From NCBI RefSeq assembly GCF_030846775.1, contig NZ_CP132910.1:220001-284000 (forward strand): a stretch of 64,000 nucleotides of DNA, given 5' to 3'. The position numbers were made by a program, and so were the translations under genes. Positions within the stretch are counted from its first letter, which is position 1; each line of letters begins with the position of its first letter. This DNA comes from Geothrix sp. 21YS21S-2 (GTDB taxonomy: Bacteria > Acidobacteriota > Holophagae > Holophagales > Holophagaceae). Below the pieces are notes generated by a model. The model made no database searches. It was not told where the DNA came from and was given only the letters and a program-made list of their open reading frames with translations. This document shows positions 30,188 to 41,473 of the stretch, in pieces.

Positions 30188-30912
30188 GATGGTACGCCCG
30201 CACCGAACAGCTCCTGGGCGCCGAGCCCCTGGCCCGGCTCCAGGACGCGCGGGTGGCCGTCTTCGGCCTGGGGGGCGTGGGGTCGTACGCCGTGGAGGCC
30301 CTGGCCCGCGCCGGGGTCGGGCACTTCCGCCTGGTCGACTACGGCGCGGTGGACGCCACGAACATCAACCGCCAGCTCTTCGCCCTGCACTCCACCCTCG
30401 GCCGGAAGAAGGCGGACCTGGCCGCGGAGCGCATCCTGGACATCAACCCGGACTGCGACGTGGACGCGCGGCCCGGATTCCTGGACCCGGACACCGTGGA
30501 CGGCTTCCTGGACCCGCGCCCCGACATGGTGGTGGACGCCATCGACTCCCTCAACTCCAAGGTCACCCTCCTGGAGGCCGTGCACCGGCTGGGCATCCCC
30601 GTGGTCTCCAGCATGGGCGCCGGCGGCAGGATGGACGCGTCCCAGGTGCGGGTCGGGGACATCTCCGAGACCCTCATCTGCCCCCTGGCGCGGGTCGTGA
30701 GGCTGCGCCTGCGCAGGCGGGGCGTGGCCTCGGGCATCCCCTGCGTGTACTCCGTGGAGCCCGCCCTCAACACGACGCCCTACGAACCCGCGGACGTGGG
30801 CGAGCACCACGGCACCGGCCGCAAGCGCCAGCCCATCGGGACGGTGTCGTACATGCCGGCGCTGTTCGGGCTGCGGGTGGCGCAGGAAGTGATCCGGAGG
30901 CTCCTAGGCTAG
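30184..30912 (+). CDS. tcdA: tRNA threonylcarbamoyladenosine dehydratase (TcdA/CsdL)
   Basis: An E1-like, ATP-using enzyme that cyclises t6A at position 37 of ANN-decoding tRNAs to ct6A. It has 242 residues. The nucleotide-binding FGLGGVGSYAVEALARAGVG is at about 22-41, followed by DATNINRQ (about 54-61), DAIDSLNSKV (about 117-126), the family-specific SSMGAGGRMDASQV (about 141-154) and DISETLICPLARVVR. It lacks the C-terminal rhodanese domain of MoeB/MOCS3 and the zinc cysteines of MoeB. The ATG at 30184 overlaps the TatD gene stop; the in-frame ATG at 30175 lies too close to AGGAG. It converges with the Dnmt2-like gene, overlapping it by nine bases. Confidence 0.88.
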   Translation: MRWYARTEQLLGAEPLARLQDARVAVFGLGGVGSYAVEALARAGVGHFRLVDYGAVDATNINRQLFALHSTLGRKKADLAAERILDINPDCDVDARPGFLDPDTVDGFLDPRPDMVVDAIDSLNSKVTLLEAVHRLGIPVVSSMGAGGRMDASQVRVGDISETLICPLARVVRLRLRRRGVASGIPCVYSVEPALNTTPYEPADVGEHHGTGRKRQPIGTVSYMPALFGLRVAQEVIRRLLG

Positions 30913-31767
30913 ATGCCCCGCCACCCAGGCCGCCACCGGGATGCTCAATCCATTTCCCAGCAGCTTGTAGCGCCCCTCAGCGGACACCTCCTCCGGGAAC
31001 GCCGGGGGAGGCTCCCACCCCAGCAGCCGCGCGGTCTCGGCCACCGAGAACCGGCGCACGCCGCGCTCCGTCTCCAGGAAGGACCCGCTGCCGACGTAGC
31101 GCCGACCGTAGCCGCCGATGAAGCATGCGGTGCGCGTGGCGTCCTCCGTCACCAGATCCAGGCCGGGCCGGTGCCGGAGGGCTTCGCCCAGGTAGAGGCC
31201 GGGGTCCTCGACAGGGTCCAGGAACCCCCGCAGGGGCGCCGTCGGGAGGCCGGGGAGCTCCCGTCCCTCCAGGGTCCTCCGGGAGGCCACCACGAAGGCC
31301 CGGGGCCGCTGGTTGGGCAGGCCGAAGCGCTGGGGGTCGAGGGTGTATTCCAGCGCATGGAAGCCGCCCTCCCGGAGCCGGTCCGTGAGCAGGGCGTGGG
31401 CCCCGGAGCCCAGGAAGCCCTCCACGGACTCCAGCACCAGGTGCTCCGGCGGGTGCGCCGCCAGGAGCTCCATCAGGCGGAGGAAGGCCCGGGAGCGCGG
31501 GTCCTCCAGATCCTGGCGGTTCCCCATGCGGCAGAAGGGCTGGCAGGGCGGGCTCATCGCCCAGGTGTCGGCCCCGTGCCGCAGGATTTCCGCGGCGGGC
31601 ACGGTGGCCAGCTCCCGGGCGGTGGGACGTTCGCCCCAGATGCGGGCGTAGGTGGCCAGGGCCGGCGGGCTGATGTCGTAGGCCGCCGCGATCGTGGCAC
31701 GTGCGCCGAAGGCGCGGCGCCAGCCGCCCATGCCCGCGAAGAACTCGATGACGCGAAGGTGCCCCAT
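30904..31767 (-). CDS. Dnmt2-type cytosine-C5 methyltransferase, probably tRNA (C38)-specific
   Basis: A 287-residue C5-cytosine methyltransferase. Motif I is IEFFAGMGGWRRAF (7-20), motif IV SPPCQPFCRMG (72-82) with catalytic Cys75, motif VI LVLESVEGF (110-118), and motif X KLLGNGLSIPVAAW (268-281). The stretch CFIGGYGRRYVGSGSFL (215-231) matches the CFT-x-x-YG-x-Y-x-x-GTGS-x-L signature that marks Dnmt2 enzymes, with CFI instead of CFT. The short target-recognition region and DPRSRAF after motif IV also fit. Dnmt2 methylates C38 in tRNA anticodon loops. It is the last gene of the sphingolipid operon, ten bases after the PAP2-type gene. No restriction endonuclease gene is adjacent. An alternative start is ATG at 31776. 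Confidence 0.8.
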   Translation of the reverse strand: MGHLRVIEFFAGMGGWRRAFGARATIAAAYDISPPALATYARIWGERPTARELATVPAAEILRHGADTWAMSPPCQPFCRMGNRQDLEDPRSRAFLRLMELLAAHPPEHLVLESVEGFLGSGAHALLTDRLREGGFHALEYTLDPQRFGLPNQRPRAFVVASRRTLEGRELPGLPTAPLRGFLDPVEDPGLYLGEALRHRPGLDLVTEDATRTACFIGGYGRRYVGSGSFLETERGVRRFSVAETARLLGWEPPPAFPEEVSAEGRYKLLGNGLSIPVAAWVAGHLA

Positions 31768-31777
31768 GGCGACCATG

Positions 31778-32674
31778 CTAGCGGGAAGCGGCGAGGGTCC
31801 GGGCGCTGGCCCAGTAGGCGACGGCCCCCACGAGGAGCCCCGCCGGCACATCCACCAGGTAGTGCGCCCGGAGGTACACCACCGCCGGCAGCATCACCGC
31901 CGTCACCACCGCCAGCGGCGCGAACAGCGCCTTCACCTCCCGCCGGGCCCAAAGCGTGAACAGCGTGGCGACCGCGATGTGGGAGCTGGGGAAGGCCCCG
32001 CCGCGGATCTCGCCGCCCCGGGTGAAGAAGAAGAGCGCATGGTTGAAGACGTACCCGTCGTAGAGCCGCGGGCCCTGGGCCGGCGGGAACCAGAAGTGCG
32101 GCCCGACGGTGGGGAACATCCAGAACAGCGCATAGCACACGAAGAAACAGGCCGTGGCCGCGAGGATCACCCGCTCGGCGGCGGCGTAGCCGGACCTCAG
32201 GAGGGCGGTGAACCCCACTATGGGCGTGAAGAAGTAGTAGACCAGGTAGGCGAAGCAGAAGATCTCGGAGAGCCAGCGCTGGGGCAGGGCGGCGCGCCAG
32301 GCCAGGGAGGGCTGGCAGCCGAAGAGGGCCTGGTCGGCCCGGGCCAGGTGGCCGTCCAGGGGCAGGGTGTGGAACAGGGGCCACAGGGTCTGCACCTGAT
32401 GGTAGAAGCACCAGTAGATGATGGGGGCGTAGAAGAGGCGGAGGACCGTGGGGACGACGGCGGCGGTGTCCCGGCTCCACCGGGCGATCAGCAGGCATCC
32501 GGCGATCACCAGGGCATTGACGCCCGCCTGGGCGGCGCAGCCGGGGTGGCCCCGCAGCCAGCCGTAGCCCAGGAAGGGCAGGGTGGCCAGGGCGTAACCC
32601 ACCACCCAGCGGTCCAGGGGACGCCAGGACCCCAGCGGGGCGGCCAGGCCGAAGGGGCGCCTAGAGCCAGCCAT
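31778..32674 (-). CDS. PAP2/Aur1-like membrane phosphotransferase or phosphatase
   Basis: A 298-residue integral membrane protein with about six hydrophobic segments. The PAP2 catalytic motifs are GGAFPSSHIAVA (about 226-237) and YLRAHYLVDVPAG (about 268-280), placing the two active-site histidines. ADQALFGCQPSLAW (about 113-126) and FPTVGPHFWF resemble the PAP2_3 group that includes Aur1 inositol-phosphorylceramide synthases. Given its neighbours it probably adds or removes a phospho-headgroup on ceramide at the membrane; this is inference. The ATG at 32674 lies 14 bases inside the cerR-like gene. Its 3' end is ten bases before the Dnmt2-like gene. Confidence 0.82.
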   Translation of the reverse strand: MAGSRRPFGLAAPLGSWRPLDRWVVGYALATLPFLGYGWLRGHPGCAAQAGVNALVIAGCLLIARWSRDTAAVVPTVLRLFYAPIIYWCFYHQVQTLWPLFHTLPLDGHLARADQALFGCQPSLAWRAALPQRWLSEIFCFAYLVYYFFTPIVGFTALLRSGYAAAERVILAATACFFVCYALFWMFPTVGPHFWFPPAQGPRLYDGYVFNHALFFFTRGGEIRGGAFPSSHIAVATLFTLWARREVKALFAPLAVVTAVMLPAVVYLRAHYLVDVPAGLLVGAVAYWASARTLAASR

Positions 32675-33641
32675 GATCGCGGTACCAGCGGACGGTCTGC
32701 CACAGGGCCTGGTCCAGGGAGGTTCTCGGCGTCCAATCGAGCAGGGCCCGGGCCTTCTCGGGGCTGGCGACCCAGGCGGGGGCCAGCATTTCCACCACCT
32801 TCTGGGGGGAGAAGATTTCCGGGCGGCCCCGGAGGCGGGCGGCAAGGCCGGCCATCTGGCCTGCGGCCCGGATGGCCGTCTCCGGGAGGTGGAGCTCCCG
32901 GCACCTGCGGCCCAGGGCCCTGGCGATGCGCCGGCCCAGGTCCAGCCAGGTGACGGGATCGGGGTTCACCAGGGGGATGATCTGGCCCGGGGGCAGGGGG
33001 GCGTCACCGGCCTTCGCGATGCCCTCGGCCAGGTCCGGGGCGAACACCAGGGAGTACCAGCGCTCCCGGGCGCCCGGGACCGGCAGGAAGCCCCGGGCGG
33101 CGATGCGGAAGTAGCTCAGCACGTCCCGGTCCCGGGGACCGAAGACCACCGGGGGGCGGAGGATGACGCTGGGAAGGCCCGAGGCCAGGACCACGCGCTC
33201 GGCCTCGAGCTTGCTGCGCCCGTACCAGGTGAGGGGGGCGTCGGGGGCGCCGCCGGGCCTGGGTTCGGGACCGCCGGGGCTGGGGCCGGCGGCGGCGAGG
33301 CTGGAGACCAGCACGAACCGCTCGAGGCCGGGGGGGCAGGCCTGCACGAGGTTCCGGGTGCCGTCCCGGTTCACGGCCATGAGGCCGGCTTCGGTGAAGC
33401 CCTTCAGGGCCCCGGCCAGGTGGAAGACGCGGCCGACCCCGGCCAGGGCCGCCTGAAGGCTGCCGGGGTCGGTGAGGTCGCCCCGGACCACCTCCACGTC
33501 CAGGCCTTCGAGGTTCGCGAGGTCGGCGCCGGGCCGGGCCAGGATCCGCACCCGGCACCCGCGTTGCGCGAGCCGCCCGCAGAGGTGGGACCCGATGAAG
33601 CCGTGGCCCCCGGTGACCAGGACGCTAGCAGGGGCGGTCAT
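32661..33641 (-). CDS. NAD(P)-dependent SDR/epimerase family protein, ceramide-reductase (CerR) candidate
   Basis: A 326-residue extended short-chain dehydrogenase. It has the nucleotide-binding VTGGHGFIGSHL (about 9-20), VVRGDLTDP (about 51-59), VFHLAGAL, the active-site SSLAAAG and YGRSK (about 140-144), and ILRPPVVFGPRD. The last part is typical of sugar-epimerase-like proteins. In Caulobacter an enzyme of this type (CerR) reduces the 3-keto group of the ceramide precursor. Placement between a GNAT acyltransferase and a PAP2 protein downstream of a serine palmitoyltransferase supports that role here. It overlaps the upstream gene by 17 bases and the downstream gene by 14. The alternative is a generic sterol or sugar dehydrogenase. 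Confidence 0.82.
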   Translation of the reverse strand: MTAPASVLVTGGHGFIGSHLCGRLAQRGCRVRILARPGADLANLEGLDVEVVRGDLTDPGSLQAALAGVGRVFHLAGALKGFTEAGLMAVNRDGTRNLVQACPPGLERFVLVSSLAAAGPSPGGPEPRPGGAPDAPLTWYGRSKLEAERVVLASGLPSVILRPPVVFGPRDRDVLSYFRIAARGFLPVPGARERWYSLVFAPDLAEGIAKAGDAPLPPGQIIPLVNPDPVTWLDLGRRIARALGRRCRELHLPETAIRAAGQMAGLAARLRGRPEIFSPQKVVEMLAPAWVASPEKARALLDWTPRTSLDQALWQTVRWYRDHGWL

Positions 33642-34755
33642 ACACGCGGTAGGTCTTGGTGCGCCGGGCCCCCATCTGGTGGAGGGGGCTCAGGAGGGCC
33701 TGGTTGTCCTCGAGGATCCAGCTCACCTCGGCGCCGCGGTATCCGGTGGTCAGGGAGTTCTGGATGGTGCGGTGGATCATCAGGAGGTCCAGCCCGCGGC
33801 GCCGGTACTGGGGGAGCACGCCCATGATCATCGTGCGCAGGCTGGAGCAGCCGGTGACCTTGAGCTTCCACAGGATCTTGAGGAGCCCCAAGGGGAGCAG
33901 CCGGCCCTGGGCCAGCTTCAGCGCCTCGTTGGCGTCGGGGATGGAGACGATGAAGCCCGCGGGCACCCCGCCCACCTCTCCCACGAAGGCGAAGCGCGTG
34001 TCCACCAGGGGCTTGAGCTCCTTGGCGATGAACGCCACCTCGCGGTCGGTCCAGGGCACGAAGCCCCAGTTCTTCGACCAGGCCTGGTTGTAGGTGTCCC
34101 TCACGAACGCCAGTTCCTCGGGCCACCGCTTCTTGTCGAGGGGCCGGATCTTCACGAGGCCGCCCCGGTCCAGGCGGTTGGCCACCGCCGTGAGCCGGTC
34201 GGCGCAGTCGGCCTTGGCCATGTAGTAGGCGTAGAGGTCCTTGGTCCTGACGAAACCCGCGGCCTCGAACTGGGAGCCGTAGTAGGCGGGATTGTAGGGC
34301 ATCATGACGGCGTTGTCCGAATCGAAGCCGTCCACCAGGAGGCCCACGATGTCGTTGGTGGTGAGGTTGACGGGGCCCCGGGCCACGGTCCTGCCCTCGG
34401 CCCGCAGCCACGCGCAGGCGGCGTCGAAGAGGGCGCCGGCCACCGCCTGGTCCGGGACGCACTCGTAGAGGCCGAAAAAGCCCACGTGCGCCTCGTCCGG
34501 GTGGAACTGGCCGTAGCGGTCGTTGCGCACCGCGGCGATGGTGCCCACCACCTCCCCGTCCCGAATGGCCAGGAAGGTCTGGACCTTGGCGTATTCGAAG
34601 AGCGGGTTCTTGAGGGGGTCCAGGAACTCCTGGCGTTCCAGGATCAGGGGGGGGACCCAGTGGGGCTCGGACCGGTGCAGGCGGTACGGGAAGCGGATGA
34701 AGGCCTCCGTGTCCCCGGGACCCGTCGCGGGCCGGACCTGGATCCCCGGGGTCAT
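33625..34755 (-). CDS. GNAT-fold acyltransferase, bacterial ceramide synthase (bCerS) candidate
   Basis: A 376-residue protein made of two GNAT-like halves. The N-terminal part has FIRFPYRLHRSEPHWVPPL (about 19-37), LFEYAKVQTFLAIRDGEVVGTIAA (about 52-75) and GPVNLTTNDIVGLLVDGF. The C-terminal half has AFVGEVGGVPAGFIVSIPD (about 246-264) and the acyl-CoA loop MGVLPQYRRRGLDLLM (about 309-324). This layout is found in large predicted N-acyltransferases encoded with serine palmitoyltransferase, and in Caulobacter the GNAT-type bCerS N-acylates 3-ketosphinganine. No signal peptide or membrane helix is present. The ATG overlaps the spt stop (ATGA), indicating coupling. Function is inferred from context. 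Confidence 0.8.
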   Translation of the reverse strand: MTPGIQVRPATGPGDTEAFIRFPYRLHRSEPHWVPPLILERQEFLDPLKNPLFEYAKVQTFLAIRDGEVVGTIAAVRNDRYGQFHPDEAHVGFFGLYECVPDQAVAGALFDAACAWLRAEGRTVARGPVNLTTNDIVGLLVDGFDSDNAVMMPYNPAYYGSQFEAAGFVRTKDLYAYYMAKADCADRLTAVANRLDRGGLVKIRPLDKKRWPEELAFVRDTYNQAWSKNWGFVPWTDREVAFIAKELKPLVDTRFAFVGEVGGVPAGFIVSIPDANEALKLAQGRLLPLGLLKILWKLKVTGCSSLRTMIMGVLPQYRRRGLDLLMIHRTIQNSLTTGYRGAEVSWILEDNQALLSPLHQMGARRTKTYRVYDRPC

Positions 34756-36008
34756 GCCCCCTGCTCCAGGAGGCCGAAATGGCGTCCGGCCTTCTGGAAG
34801 ATGTCGAGGGCCCACTCCAGCTGCTCCCGGGTGTGGCCCGCGGTGACCGAGATGCGGATGAGGCTGCGGCCCGGAGGCACCCCGGGGGGCACCACGGGGT
34901 TCACGAAGATCCCCGCCTCCTTCAGGTAGAGCCACATCTTCATGCAGGTGTCGAACTCGCCCACCATGATGGGGATGACGGGGGTTTCGCTCTTGCCCGT
35001 GTCGAAGCCGATCTCGTCGAAGCCCTTCTTGAGGAACCGCGCGTTCTCCCAGAGCCGGGCGATCCGCTCGGGTTCGGATTCCATGACTTCCAGGGCGCCC
35101 AGCACCGCGGCCACGCTGGCCGGGGAGGCCGAGGCCGAGAACATGTAGGGCCGGGCCACGTGCTGGAGGTAGTTGATCGCCTTCGCGCTGCCGGCGATGA
35201 AGCCGCCGATGGCCGCCAGGGACTTGGAAAAGGTGCCCATGATCAGGTCCACCTGGTCCGTGAGGCCGAAGTGGGCCGCGGTGCCCCGGCCGCCGGGGCC
35301 GAGCACGCCGATGCCGTGGGCGTCGTCCACCATCACCTGGGCGCCGTAGCGCTGGGCCAGATTCACGATGCCGGGGAGGTCGCAGATGTCGCCCTCCATG
35401 GAGAAGACGCCGTCGGTGACGATGAGCTTGGGGGCCTGGGCCGGGATCCGGCTGAGCTTCTCCTCCAGGTCGGCCATGTTGTTGTGGTCGTAGCGCACCA
35501 GGGTCCCATGGCTGAGCATGCAGCCGTCCATGATGCAGGCATGGATGTACTTGTCGCCGACGATGTACTCGCCCTTGTGCACCAGGCTGGAGATGACCCC
35601 GGTGTTGGTCTGGAAGCCGGTGGGAAAGACCAGGGCCGCCTCCTTCCCCACGAGGGCCGCAAGCCTGTGCTCCAGTTCGACGTGGATGGGCAGGGTCCCG
35701 TTGAGGAAGCGGGAGCCGGCGCAGCCGGTGCCGTACACCTCGATGGCCTCCAGGGCGCGCTCCTTGACCCGGGGATGGGTGGTGAGCTCCAGGTAGGAAT
35801 TGGACCCCAGCATCAGCTGCTTCTGCCCGTCGACCATCACCTCGGTGGCCTGGCCCGTTTCGATGACCCGGTGGTACGGATAGATGCCCATGGCTTTCAA
35901 GTCATCGGGGATGGTAAAGGCGGCGCACTTGTCCAGAACGCTCGGCAGCTTGACCGGGGCCGGTATTTCTAGGGCCGAGCCAGAACCACGGGGCTTGTGG
36001 GTCATCAT
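34752..36008 (-). CDS. spt: serine palmitoyltransferase-type alpha-oxoamine synthase
   Basis: A 418-residue PLP enzyme of the AOS family (SPT, KBL, BioF, HemA). It has GSNSYLELTTHPRV (about 68-81), YGTGCAGSRFLNGTLPIHVELE (about 92-113), VFSMEGDICDLPGIV (about 201-215) and VDDAHGIGVLGPGGRG (about 228-243). The Schiff-base Lys262 lies in GTFSKSLAAIGGF, and PVVPPGVPPGRSLIRISVTAGHT is near the C-terminus. The YLELTTHP and PVVPP wording is SPT-like rather than KBL-like, and the operon context with GNAT, SDR and PAP2 genes supports condensation of serine with an acyl thioester. GAGGTG precedes two adjacent ATGs (36008, 36005); the second is better spaced. It is the first gene of the operon. Confidence 0.88.
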   Translation of the reverse strand: MMTHKPRGSGSALEIPAPVKLPSVLDKCAAFTIPDDLKAMGIYPYHRVIETGQATEVMVDGQKQLMLGSNSYLELTTHPRVKERALEAIEVYGTGCAGSRFLNGTLPIHVELEHRLAALVGKEAALVFPTGFQTNTGVISSLVHKGEYIVGDKYIHACIMDGCMLSHGTLVRYDHNNMADLEEKLSRIPAQAPKLIVTDGVFSMEGDICDLPGIVNLAQRYGAQVMVDDAHGIGVLGPGGRGTAAHFGLTDQVDLIMGTFSKSLAAIGGFIAGSAKAINYLQHVARPYMFSASASPASVAAVLGALEVMESEPERIARLWENARFLKKGFDEIGFDTGKSETPVIPIMVGEFDTCMKMWLYLKEAGIFVNPVVPPGVPPGRSLIRISVTAGHTREQLEWALDIFQKAGRHFGLLEQGA

Positions 36009-36326
36009 TCACCTCAAATTTTAATAAAGCTAACACAGTTGTTACAGAACCAACAAACGACCCGTCCCCAGCCCGCCTTGGGAATGAAAATAGCATGCGG
36101 CATGTGGAAGGTGGGTGGAAATCCCCGGCGCGCCCATGCGGGGGAATTTCGGGATGAATCAAGTCATCTATTCCCCTGGAATCCATTGGGGACGCCCGTC
36201 TTGGCGGCTTTGAGAACGGAAGGGGACGGAACTCGGGTTACTTTAATGTTGAAATGCTGAAATTGAATTAATTGTTCCCTTGCGACCCGTTCTTTGAAGC
36301 AGATATTTATATAAGAGGTTAATACA
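36009..36326. other. divergent intergenic region with dyad upstream of spt
   Basis: This 318-base gap between divergent genes is much more AT-rich than its surroundings at both ends and should hold two promoters. TAACA-CAGT-TGTTA (36031-36044) is a small dyad about 25 bases before the spt start. On the plus side the AT-rich TATTTATATAAG (about 36303-36314) precedes AGAGG and the ATG at 36327. The GC-rich middle holds no recognisable gene. Confidence 0.4.
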
Positions 36327-38144
36327 ATGAGCTGGCTCGAGGATCGCATCCGCTCCGCCGCACGCTTCACCCTGGGCGCCACCCTGCCGTTCCTGGGCCT
36401 GCTTCTCCTGGGCCTTGCGGGGGTTCTTCTCCTGGTCCTCCCGGCCCCGGGCCTGGGGCTCCTGGCCTGGCCTGCCGCCGCCTTCCTCCTGGCCAACGCC
36501 CTCTACGGCCTGCGCCTTGCGCTCAAGAGCTTCCCCCGGCCCCCGGGCCGCGTCCTGAAGCCCGGGGAGGCCCCAGCCCTGGACGAGCGCCTGGAGGCGG
36601 CCCGGGAGGCCTGGCAGGGGCCCCGGTCGCCCCAGGTGATCCTGGCTCCCGACGCCTGGAGCGTGGAACTCACCGGCGTACCCATGGCCGGCATGTTCGG
36701 GTGGAGCCGGTACCACTGGCATGTCGGCATCTATCCCCTGCTGGCCCTGAGCCTCCGTGAGCTGGACGCCGTGGCCGAGTGGGAGGCGGTCTTCTGGTCG
36801 GACTACCAGGGCTGGCTGAACCTGCAGGTGAAGCGGCTGGCCTCCTACTGGTACCGGGTCCACCTCCACATCGAGACCTCGATGCGCAACGGCGCCCTGG
36901 GTTGGCCCAGGTGGTGCACCGCCTTCCTGCGCCCCTACACCCGGTGGGTGGTGGCGAGCTACCAGCCCTTCCTGGCCCGAGAGTTCATCCGCACGGACCG
37001 GGCCATCGCCGAGAAGCACGGCACGCCCACCCTGGTGCGGGCCCTGTGCCGCCTGGCCATCCTGCAACCCCTGGTGGCCCGCAGGGTCTTCGCCGACTGG
37101 GACGCCTGCCTGGATACCGGCGTCCCCCTGCCCGCGGATCTCCACCGCCACCTGGGCGAGGTGCTCGCCGCCTGCCCCGAAGGCGCCGAAGGCATGCTGG
37201 AACTGGCGCTGGATGGCCTCCAGAAGGAGGCGCCGCCCCTGCTGCGCTTGCGCCTGGACTACCTGCAGGCCAAGGCCCAGGTCCCCATGCCCCCCGCCGG
37301 CCACGCCTACCGCCGGCTCCTGGAAGGCACGAAGGTGGCCGAGGAGGTGGAAGGGGCCTGGAAGGCCCGGATGCTGGCCTGCGCCGAGGAGGCGGCCCGC
37401 AGCTGGGCGGAGGACGCCACGCGCTACCGGGACCTCGCCGGGGCCCTGGAGGGCACCTTCCCGGACCATCCCGACGCCCTGGAATACCTGAAGCTCGCGT
37501 ACGAACACGCCCCTTGGCCCCGGTTCGACGCGGCCCTGGAGATGTACCGGGCGGCCAACCGGAACTGCGTGGAAACCTCCTTCCTGTCCATCCGCCGCGC
37601 CCTGGACCGCGGCCGGGACAGCGCCGCGGTTTTCGAGGCCCGGGAGCTGATCCACCGCGACCCGGCCCTGGCCCCGGCCTGCCACGAACTGCTGGCCTAC
37701 CACCTGCGGGCCCGGGGCGACCGGAAGAACGCCGACAAGGAGTGGGACCGGGCCCTTCGCGCCGCGGCCCTGGTGGAGAAGGTTCAGGGCGAGCGCATGG
37801 GCGTCTCGCTGCTGGATGCCCTGGAATCCCACCACTGCAGCCCCTCGGCGCTGCAGGAGATCCAGCGGGTGTGCCTGTCCGACGCCCGGGTCGCCGAAGC
37901 CCACCTGGTGCGCAAGAAGCTCCTCTTCCACGCCGAACGTCCCGTGCTTCTCCTGGTGGTCCGCTGGAAGGGCTCCTGGTGGGATCCCTTCGGGCGCAAG
38001 AGGCTGGCCTTCCAGCGGGAACTCCAGGACGCCTGCCCGTTCCCACCGGAGGCGACGGGTTTCATCCAGGTGGCCGGGCGGGCTTCCCTGTGGCGGTTCG
38101 AAGGGAAGCTGCGAAGGCTGAACGGGCTCATTTTCCGGAGGTGA
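36327..38144 (+). CDS. membrane-anchored protein with degenerate M48 peptidase-like domain
   Basis: A 605-residue protein not assigned to a named family. Two hydrophobic helices at the N-terminus (about 17-39 and 43-60) anchor it. Residues 130-232 resemble the M48 metallopeptidase core: PLLALSLRELDAVAEWEAVFW aligns with the helix carrying HExxH, but the site reads WEAVF (152-156). The later FLAREFIRTDRAIAEKHG (about 215-232) matches the ExxxD metal and salt-bridge helix. Both zinc histidines are lost, so it is probably not a protease. The C-terminal half looks helical and repeat-like (TPR-like pattern around 345-480). AGAGG precedes the ATG. It may act as a scaffold or sensor at the membrane. 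Confidence 0.6.
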   Translation: MSWLEDRIRSAARFTLGATLPFLGLLLLGLAGVLLLVLPAPGLGLLAWPAAAFLLANALYGLRLALKSFPRPPGRVLKPGEAPALDERLEAAREAWQGPRSPQVILAPDAWSVELTGVPMAGMFGWSRYHWHVGIYPLLALSLRELDAVAEWEAVFWSDYQGWLNLQVKRLASYWYRVHLHIETSMRNGALGWPRWCTAFLRPYTRWVVASYQPFLAREFIRTDRAIAEKHGTPTLVRALCRLAILQPLVARRVFADWDACLDTGVPLPADLHRHLGEVLAACPEGAEGMLELALDGLQKEAPPLLRLRLDYLQAKAQVPMPPAGHAYRRLLEGTKVAEEVEGAWKARMLACAEEAARSWAEDATRYRDLAGALEGTFPDHPDALEYLKLAYEHAPWPRFDAALEMYRAANRNCVETSFLSIRRALDRGRDSAAVFEARELIHRDPALAPACHELLAYHLRARGDRKNADKEWDRALRAAALVEKVQGERMGVSLLDALESHHCSPSALQEIQRVCLSDARVAEAHLVRKKLLFHAERPVLLLVVRWKGSWWDPFGRKRLAFQRELQDACPFPPEATGFIQVAGRASLWRFEGKLRRLNGLIFRR

Positions 38145-40429: not shown

Positions 40430-41473
40430 ATGCCACGGCTCATACTGCACAAGGACCTGCGTGACGTCGAAGGCCTGTGGACGTCCATGTACGGCGATGG
40501 CCGGGACTACACGCCGTTCCAGGCCTTCGACTACTGCCGCGTCGTGGGGAAGTTCTTCCATCTCTCCACCCGGCATCTCTACCGCAATGTCATCTACGAG
40601 GTGCGGGACGACGCGGACCGCACCGTGCTGCTTCTGCCCCTCCACATAGGCCGGGCCGCCATGGCGGGCAAGGCCTTCCTCTGGGGCGAGTTCTCCCAGG
40701 CGGGCTACCTGGAGGGGCTCACCAGCGACGGCGTCAAGCCCGGAGACCTGCGCTTCGCCCTCGAGGCCATCGCGGACGGCCGCCCCACGGAGTTCATTTT
40801 CAGCCGGGTCCGGGCCGGAAGCCGCATGGACCGCCTGATCGAGGCGGCCTGGACGCCGGAGGAATATGACCGGAAGGCGCTGCCCTGCGCCCACATCCCC
40901 CTGGGCGGAGGTTACGAGGCCTACCTGGGCCGTCTCAGCAAAGGGTACCGGCAGAAGCTTCGGGCCTCGGTCCGGCATCTGGAGGCCGACGGCCGCACCT
41001 GGGAGGTGAGGACCTTCCTCGACCAGCCCATGCCTTTCTCCACGCAATTGCGTCTGTTCGACATCTACTGGCGACGCATGACGGAAAAGGGAGTCAACTT
41101 CAAGGCGCGGAAGTACTTCCCCTACTTCATGCGGAGGTGGTTCAACCCGACCATCCTGGCCCTGAGCCGGCTGCCGAACACCTTCTACGCGATCCTCTAC
41201 ATCGACCGGTCCGTCGCCGGGTTCTGCGCCGGCTTCCGGGCGGGGGACGGATCGATCACGCTGCCCTTCCTGGCCATGGAGGGGGCGTTCGGGAAGTACA
41301 GCCCGGGCGGGCTGCTGATCAACGGCACGCTCAAGCACCTCATCGAGACCACCGACACCCCCGTCTTCGACCTGTCCCGGGGCAACGAGCGGTACAAGTT
41401 CGACTACGGGGGCGTCCAGCACATCAACCACTGCTACACCATCCCGGTGGTCAGATCTCCCGGGCCAGCTTGA
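40430..41473 (+). CDS. BioF2-like/CelD-type GNAT acyltransferase
   Basis: A 347-residue cytosolic protein. The central segment GYEAYLGRLSKGYRQKLRASVRHLEADG (about 162-189) is the hallmark of the BioF2-like GNAT_6/CelD group. It is followed by a FYAILYIDRSVAGFCAGFRAGDGSITLPF region (about 258-286) and the family-typical FDLSRGNERYKFDYGG (about 321-336). Proteins of this type are linked to exopolysaccharide, cellulose or peptidoglycan-related acylation. No polysaccharide genes are adjacent. The ATG follows a spacer of about 90 bases after the MFS gene. It converges with the next gene, overlapping by 23 bases. Confidence 0.75.
   Translation: MPRLILHKDLRDVEGLWTSMYGDGRDYTPFQAFDYCRVVGKFFHLSTRHLYRNVIYEVRDDADRTVLLLPLHIGRAAMAGKAFLWGEFSQAGYLEGLTSDGVKPGDLRFALEAIADGRPTEFIFSRVRAGSRMDRLIEAAWTPEEYDRKALPCAHIPLGGGYEAYLGRLSKGYRQKLRASVRHLEADGRTWEVRTFLDQPMPFSTQLRLFDIYWRRMTEKGVNFKARKYFPYFMRRWFNPTILALSRLPNTFYAILYIDRSVAGFCAGFRAGDGSITLPFLAMEGAFGKYSPGGLLINGTLKHLIETTDTPVFDLSRGNERYKFDYGGVQHINHCYTIPVVRSPGPA

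Follow-up and report, generated by a model that had tools for sequence, protein, structure and literature searches.

A compact four-gene operon in Geothrix, likely to encode ceramide synthesis followed by Aur1-like headgroup transfer

Known sphingolipid systems and the Geothrix locus

Among the described sphingolipid systems, those closest to the locus treated here are the Caulobacter crescentus gene set (spt, bcerS CC_1154, cerR, acpR and aasR), the Bacteroides thetaiotaomicron genes BT_1522-1526 and the yeast enzyme Aur1. The locus itself is an overlapping set of four genes on the minus strand, at 31778-36008 of a 64 kb stretch of DNA (the window) from the 5.25 Mb, single-contig genome of Geothrix sp. 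21YS21S-2, a member of the Acidobacteriota. It is predicted to encode the same three core activities as the Caulobacter set and, in addition, a membrane protein predicted to be, like the enzymes of BT_1522-1526 and yeast, an Aur1-fold PAP2-type transferase acting on ceramide through a His-His-Asp centre. The reading favoured here, with a probability of about 0.7, is that of a sphingolipid operon in which ceramide synthesis is followed by Aur1-like headgroup transfer.

The operon differs from these systems in several respects. Its GNAT gene is joined to spt by a 4-nt overlap, whereas bacterial cerS was stated to lie “always” in a different operon (PMC11324152), a generalisation that the GNAT-spt loci found here contradict outside the group concerned. 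Unlike in Caulobacter, the cluster carries no dedicated acyl carrier protein (ACP) or acyl-ACP synthetase, its serine palmitoyltransferase (SPT) is of the Bacteroidetes/Sphingobacterium kind, and a single PAP2 gene stands in place of the CPG gene set. BT_1522-1526 has its own inositol-phosphate synthase and phosphatidylinositol synthase (PMC8791184, PMC9246714), both missing from the Geothrix genome, where the transferase candidate instead shares an operon with the genes for ceramide formation. A study of Black Sea metagenome-assembled genomes (ISME J 2024, PMC11334938) reports clusters of Spt-like, bCerS and CerR homologues from up to 40 phyla and, in the part consulted, describes no fourth PAP2 gene, no Holophagae-type operon and no Glu74 variant of the kind presented below. 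The core is already known; the novelty lies in the clade-specific Glu74 and in the addition of an Aur1-like enzyme to that core as a fourth operon gene, in a lineage apparently devoid of inositol synthesis.

The features of the locus are the following:

34752-36008, minus strand: SPT-type alpha-oxoamine synthase, 418 aa (NCBIfam, PDB matches, tree)
33625-34755, minus strand: tandem (two-lobed) GNAT, bCerS equivalent, 376 aa (AlphaFold fold, synteny, Roseomonas bridge)
32661-33641, minus strand: extended SDR, CerR equivalent, 326 aa (Pfam Epimerase, 2.9e-30; synteny)
31778-32674, minus strand: PAP2_3 membrane protein, candidate Aur1-like ceramide headgroup phosphotransferase, 298 aa (PAP2_3, 3.2e-17; AlphaFold; co-occurrence)
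36018-36045, minus strand: weak match to a sigma-70-like promoter (GTAACA-16-TAAAAT) immediately ahead of the SPT start (consensus only)

The gene coordinates and the overlaps of 4 nt (SPT/GNAT), 17 nt (GNAT/SDR) and 14 nt (SDR/PAP2) are exactly those of an earlier sequence-only reading of this DNA, and its family assignments were recovered with NCBIfam and Pfam (Aminotran_1_2, Acetyltransf_1, Epimerase and PAP2_3, respectively). The PAP2 start is placed at the ATG at 32674 rather than in the longer TTG frame of the open reading frame list. Ten related genomes keep the SDR/PAP2 overlap, and most of them the SPT/GNAT overlap as well. Among 80 named loci, which come from many phyla and are the best 80 GNAT loci of a contig scan, 50 have an SPT within 3.5 kb of GNAT, with the same direction in 49 of the 50. 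Because the overlaps recur in relatives and the two genes adjoin so often, the arrangement is not a product of chance, and the overlaps suggest strict co-expression of the four genes. The promoter-type match, one found against 0.2 expected, is close to the start codon. A near-identical cluster occurs in a named Acidobacteria metagenome-assembled genome (L034), and on trees it stands beside the cluster of a genome of the window's family, which assigns the window to the Acidobacteriota.

The probable ceramide core

Among NCBIfam models, the first protein scored best with SerpalmtaseCFB (555 bits), ahead of a BioF/Kbl subfamily model (433 bits) and BioF (397 bits), the alpha/beta-type SPTs and KBL (392 bits) being lower. 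Its best PDB relatives are Sphingobacterium SPT entries (9e-133), with 54% identity to the crystallised 8guh, and a quick maximum-likelihood tree, containing few outgroups and some long branches, grouped it with Sphingobacterium SPT with a branch support of 99, leaving the KBL and BioF of its own genome outside. The lysine binding pyridoxal phosphate (Lys262), the stacking His156 and the carboxylate-contacting Asn70 and Arg385 are all kept, and the position corresponding to the SulA-diagnostic Lys281, located through its offset from the first of these residues, is Ala (FSASA), the same as in SPTs (for the roles of these residues and the SulA site see PMC9304779). One position departs from the usual pattern: Glu74 (35787-35789, minus strand) replaces the Gly of the N-S-Y-L-G motif, four residues past the carboxylate-binding Asn. 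The change is clade-specific, being present in the window SPT and six relatives, with Gly in 56 of 64 aligned SPTs. It does not track the PAP2 gene, as the f2 family carries PAP2 together with Gly.

The AlphaFold model of the second protein (pLDDT 90) found its best match in the tandem GNAT 7q3a (Z 24.5), in agreement with the two lobes recognised earlier, mycothiol synthase (MshD) and N-myristoyltransferases being matched as well; a sequence search of the PDB returned nothing useful. Relatives are present in 85 of 297 sampled Acidobacteriota genomes and are also widespread outside the phylum. In the GNAT clade holding the window protein all eight rows are SPT-linked, although some relatives elsewhere have no such link and the family as a whole may therefore be broader than ceramide synthesis. 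A bridge to Caulobacter is provided by a Roseomonas mucosa plasmid, whose GNAT is 40% identical to that of the window, is annotated “dATP pyrophosphohydrolase”, and is preceded by two LptF/LptG genes and followed by a nucleotidyltransferase. The same plasmid also carries ACP and SPT genes, located at the opposite end of the cluster. Caulobacter CC_1154 is likewise annotated “dATP pyrophosphohydrolase” (PMC13001252), and corresponds to the N-acyltransferase CerS, which adjoins LptF2/LptG2 (PMC11324152). The Roseomonas cluster thus links the window GNAT indirectly to the Caulobacter ceramide synthase. Protein families, tree, synteny and this bridge, taken together, give good support to equivalents of Spt, bCerS and CerR making ceramide here.

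The third protein has intact SDR motifs (Rossmann TGGHGFIGSHL and YxxxK as YGRSK), and an SDR of the same kind lies near 42 of the 50 SPT-GNAT pairs, compared with 2 of the 30 GNAT loci without SPT. Its putative identity as the CerR equivalent is based on this synteny. Caulobacter CerR is periplasmic (PMC11087976), whereas a crude hydropathy scan of the window SDR saw no signal-type hydrophobic segment, so that reduction of the 3-keto group may be cytoplasmic here. Since the SPT-GNAT-SDR arrangement is conserved in many phyla and connected to Caulobacter through Roseomonas, the three-gene core is a member of the known Spt/bCerS/CerR route, as the sequence-only reading had proposed. Myxococcus loci (L038, L040) share this synteny, and ceramide phosphoinositol is a reported lipid of that genus (PMC9246714).

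In the proposed pathway, SPT would join an amino acid, most likely L-serine, and an acyl thioester, probably acyl-CoA, to form 3-ketosphinganine, which would be N-acylated by the tandem GNAT and reduced at its 3-keto group by the SDR to give dihydroceramide, these two steps presumably occurring in this order. The PAP2_3 enzyme would then use its His-His-Asp centre to move a phospho-headgroup from a glycerophospholipid to ceramide, in the manner of Aur1. The cluster holds no ACP or acyl-CoA ligase gene, as already remarked in the sequence-only reading, and the genome search that it suggested gave ten PP-binding matches, all located elsewhere in the genome. A dedicated ACP may be unneeded, because Bacteroidetes-type SPTs take acyl-CoA (PMC11324152). 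The description of the locus as a “complete route” is an overstatement, both donors, acyl and headgroup, being drawn from elsewhere in the cell.

The PAP2 protein and its probable headgroup donor

The AlphaFold model of the fourth protein (pLDDT 86) matched yeast Aur1 with Z scores of 18.2 and 17.8 over 258-262 residues, whereas PAP2 phosphatases did not exceed 12.7 (about 165 residues) and human SMSr scored 11.8 (197 residues). Foldseek E-values were modest (about 1e-3), and a profile of 14 relatives had AUR1 as its top PDB match (E 3.5e-5). The predicted centre consists of His232, His271 and Asp275. The window protein does not carry the phosphatase C1 motif KxxxxxxRP, and 13 of the 14 PAP2 members of the window's family are without it. 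Among 77 genomes sampled from this family, SPT and PAP2 are found in the same 14 and neither occurs elsewhere, with a patchy distribution of the operon: it is carried by 6 of 6 genomes of the window's genus versus 5 of about 50 of the largest sister genus (g2). Because its co-occurrence with SPT is identical and the 14-nt overlap is conserved, the PAP2 gene belongs to the ceramide pathway. The Aur1-like character ascribed to it from the sequence is upheld by the fold and by this perfect co-occurrence.

Aur1 requires phosphatidylinositol. Inositol-phosphate synthase is absent from the Geothrix genome according to PF01658 and PF07994, both of which find the enzyme in control genomes; of 20 Acidobacteriota genomes with the cluster 19 lack it too, although 176 of the 297 phylum genomes possess it. 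The sole carrier having it (G231) is also the only one with no PAP2 gene detected beside the SDR. The phosphoinositol headgroup suggested by the sequence-only reading is therefore not borne out by the gene search that it had proposed. The CDP-alcohol transferases of the genome are three, two pgsA-like and one pssA-like. With no inositol-phosphate synthase but with pssA and pgsA genes, the organism would most likely take the headgroup from phosphatidylethanolamine or phosphatidylglycerol, not from phosphatidylinositol. The former donor would be favoured by analogy with Bacteroides, which makes ethanolamine phosphoceramide. Its vesicles have this lipid as one of two main sphingolipids, yet no match to a eukaryotic ethanolamine phosphoceramide synthase was found there (PMC8791184). 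That the window protein founds a bacterial family of Aur1-fold ceramide headgroup transferases using phosphatidylethanolamine (or phosphatidylglycerol) instead of phosphatidylinositol is a tentative proposal, to which we give slightly less than even odds. If true, it would supply a gene-level answer for bacterial phosphoethanolamine- or phosphoglycerol-ceramide synthesis. Whether Arg or Gln precedes the second His shows no consistent link with the presence of inositol-phosphate synthase.

Alternative explanations

The first three genes could make ceramide while the PAP2 protein acts as a lipid phosphatase, its substrate being for example ceramide phosphate, a sphingoid-base phosphate or a carrier lipid diphosphate and the end product being free ceramide or a sphingolipid finished elsewhere. 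Many PAP2 proteins are indeed phosphatases, and the NCBIfam models that weakly match the window protein's relatives are those for undecaprenyl-diphosphatase and LpxE; however, a whole-length match to Aur1 far above the phosphatases, the lack of the C1 motif in nearly all family members and an occurrence that tracks SPT exactly make this account unlikely. Formation of inositol phosphorylceramide from phosphatidylinositol would suit the Aur1 fold, and inositol-phosphate synthase was found in 12 of the 14 named genomes checked, mostly Gemmatimonadota, in which a related PAP2 lies close to GNAT or the cluster is of a similar kind. The two genomes without it are Acidobacteria, in line with its absence here and in nearly all carriers from the phylum, and with only pgsA- and pssA-like CDP-alcohol transferases available this version could be rescued solely by inositol uptake from the medium; we regard it as very improbable. 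No open paper on a bacterial inositol phosphorylceramide gene of the PAP2 type came up in a literature search phrased in these terms. Hardly less improbable is the use by SPT of alanine, glycine, lysine or cysteate, yielding 1-deoxyceramides or another ceramide analogue. The clade-specific Glu74 speaks for such a choice, and SPT-like enzymes may take alanine (PMC11334938), but the four catalytic contacts are kept, the Lys specific to the cysteate-using SulA is Ala (PMC9304779), and 1-deoxyceramides lack the 1-hydroxyl needed by an Aur1-like enzyme, which makes them a poor fit with the fourth gene. Finally, the alpha-oxoamine synthase shares its superfamily with KBL and BioF, and could in principle be one of these with unrelated neighbours. 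The genome, however, has a separate KBL beside a threonine-dehydrogenase-like gene (tdh), with 667 bits on the glycine C-acetyltransferase model against a cut-off of 460, and a second superfamily member in a bioB-containing cluster with BioF as best match. With both enzymes encoded in their own pathway contexts and scoring far better on those models, and given the placement of SPT on the tree and its synteny across many phyla, this identity is rejected.

Several points weigh against the favoured reading of ceramide synthesis followed by Aur1-like headgroup transfer. The phosphoinositol dihydroceramide synthase model NF052609 gave no match to the window PAP2 protein up to an E-value of 5, and likeness to the Aur1 fold, in a predicted model, is no proof of transfer rather than hydrolysis. 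The 555 bits of SPT fall under the 640-bit cut-off of the SerpalmtaseCFB model (NF047600), which lowers the claim of strict equivalog status only, as the model was made for the Cytophaga-Flavobacterium-Bacteroides lineage. Glu74 is unusual in an active-site motif and leaves some doubt on the use of L-serine. The tie of the window GNAT to Caulobacter CerS runs through the annotation and neighbours of the Roseomonas gene, itself a long branch on the GNAT tree. No lipid data were found for the organism, nor any open paper dealing with sphingolipids in Holophaga, Geothrix or Mesoterricola.

Variation among lineages and significance

In other lineages, different genes lie beside the SPT-GNAT-(SDR) core: an LTA-synthase-like (lipoteichoic acid) protein on a Rubrobacter radiotolerans plasmid, glycosyltransferases in Rubrobacteraceae and Rhodothermales, and an MMPL protein in Bailinhaonella. 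The coordinates of these neighbours are:

L142, 8224-10293
L068, 5720-6892
L081, 5464-6597
L087, 5539-6651
L091, 10079-12661

Together with PAP2, they suggest that the ceramide core is conserved and that the position behind it, for a headgroup or transport gene, varies. An Acidobacteriota lineage joins the likely sphingolipid makers; its core genes all lie in one small operon with a candidate headgroup enzyme, possibly one acting independently of inositol, and the compactness of the operon means that the route could easily be moved to E. coli for testing.

Neighbouring genes

A Dcm-type cytosine-5 DNA methyltransferase (30904-31776, minus strand) starts 1 nt past the PAP2 stop. It was considered as a fifth operon member and rejected, because its distance from the cluster varies: one close relative has it nearby, a second has it at about 600 bp, and in a third (G097) kilobases separate the two. 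The gene probably lies outside the operon and stays nearby in the genus at varying distance. On the other side, a 605-aa protein with an N-terminal hydrophobic segment is encoded divergently from the operon (36327-38144, plus strand); Pfam and NCBIfam gave no match for it, and its position beside the operon is conserved in the genus with 56-84% identity. Further upstream, a few genes from the operon, a FemAB-like GNAT (PF13480) is encoded at 40430-41473 on the plus strand.

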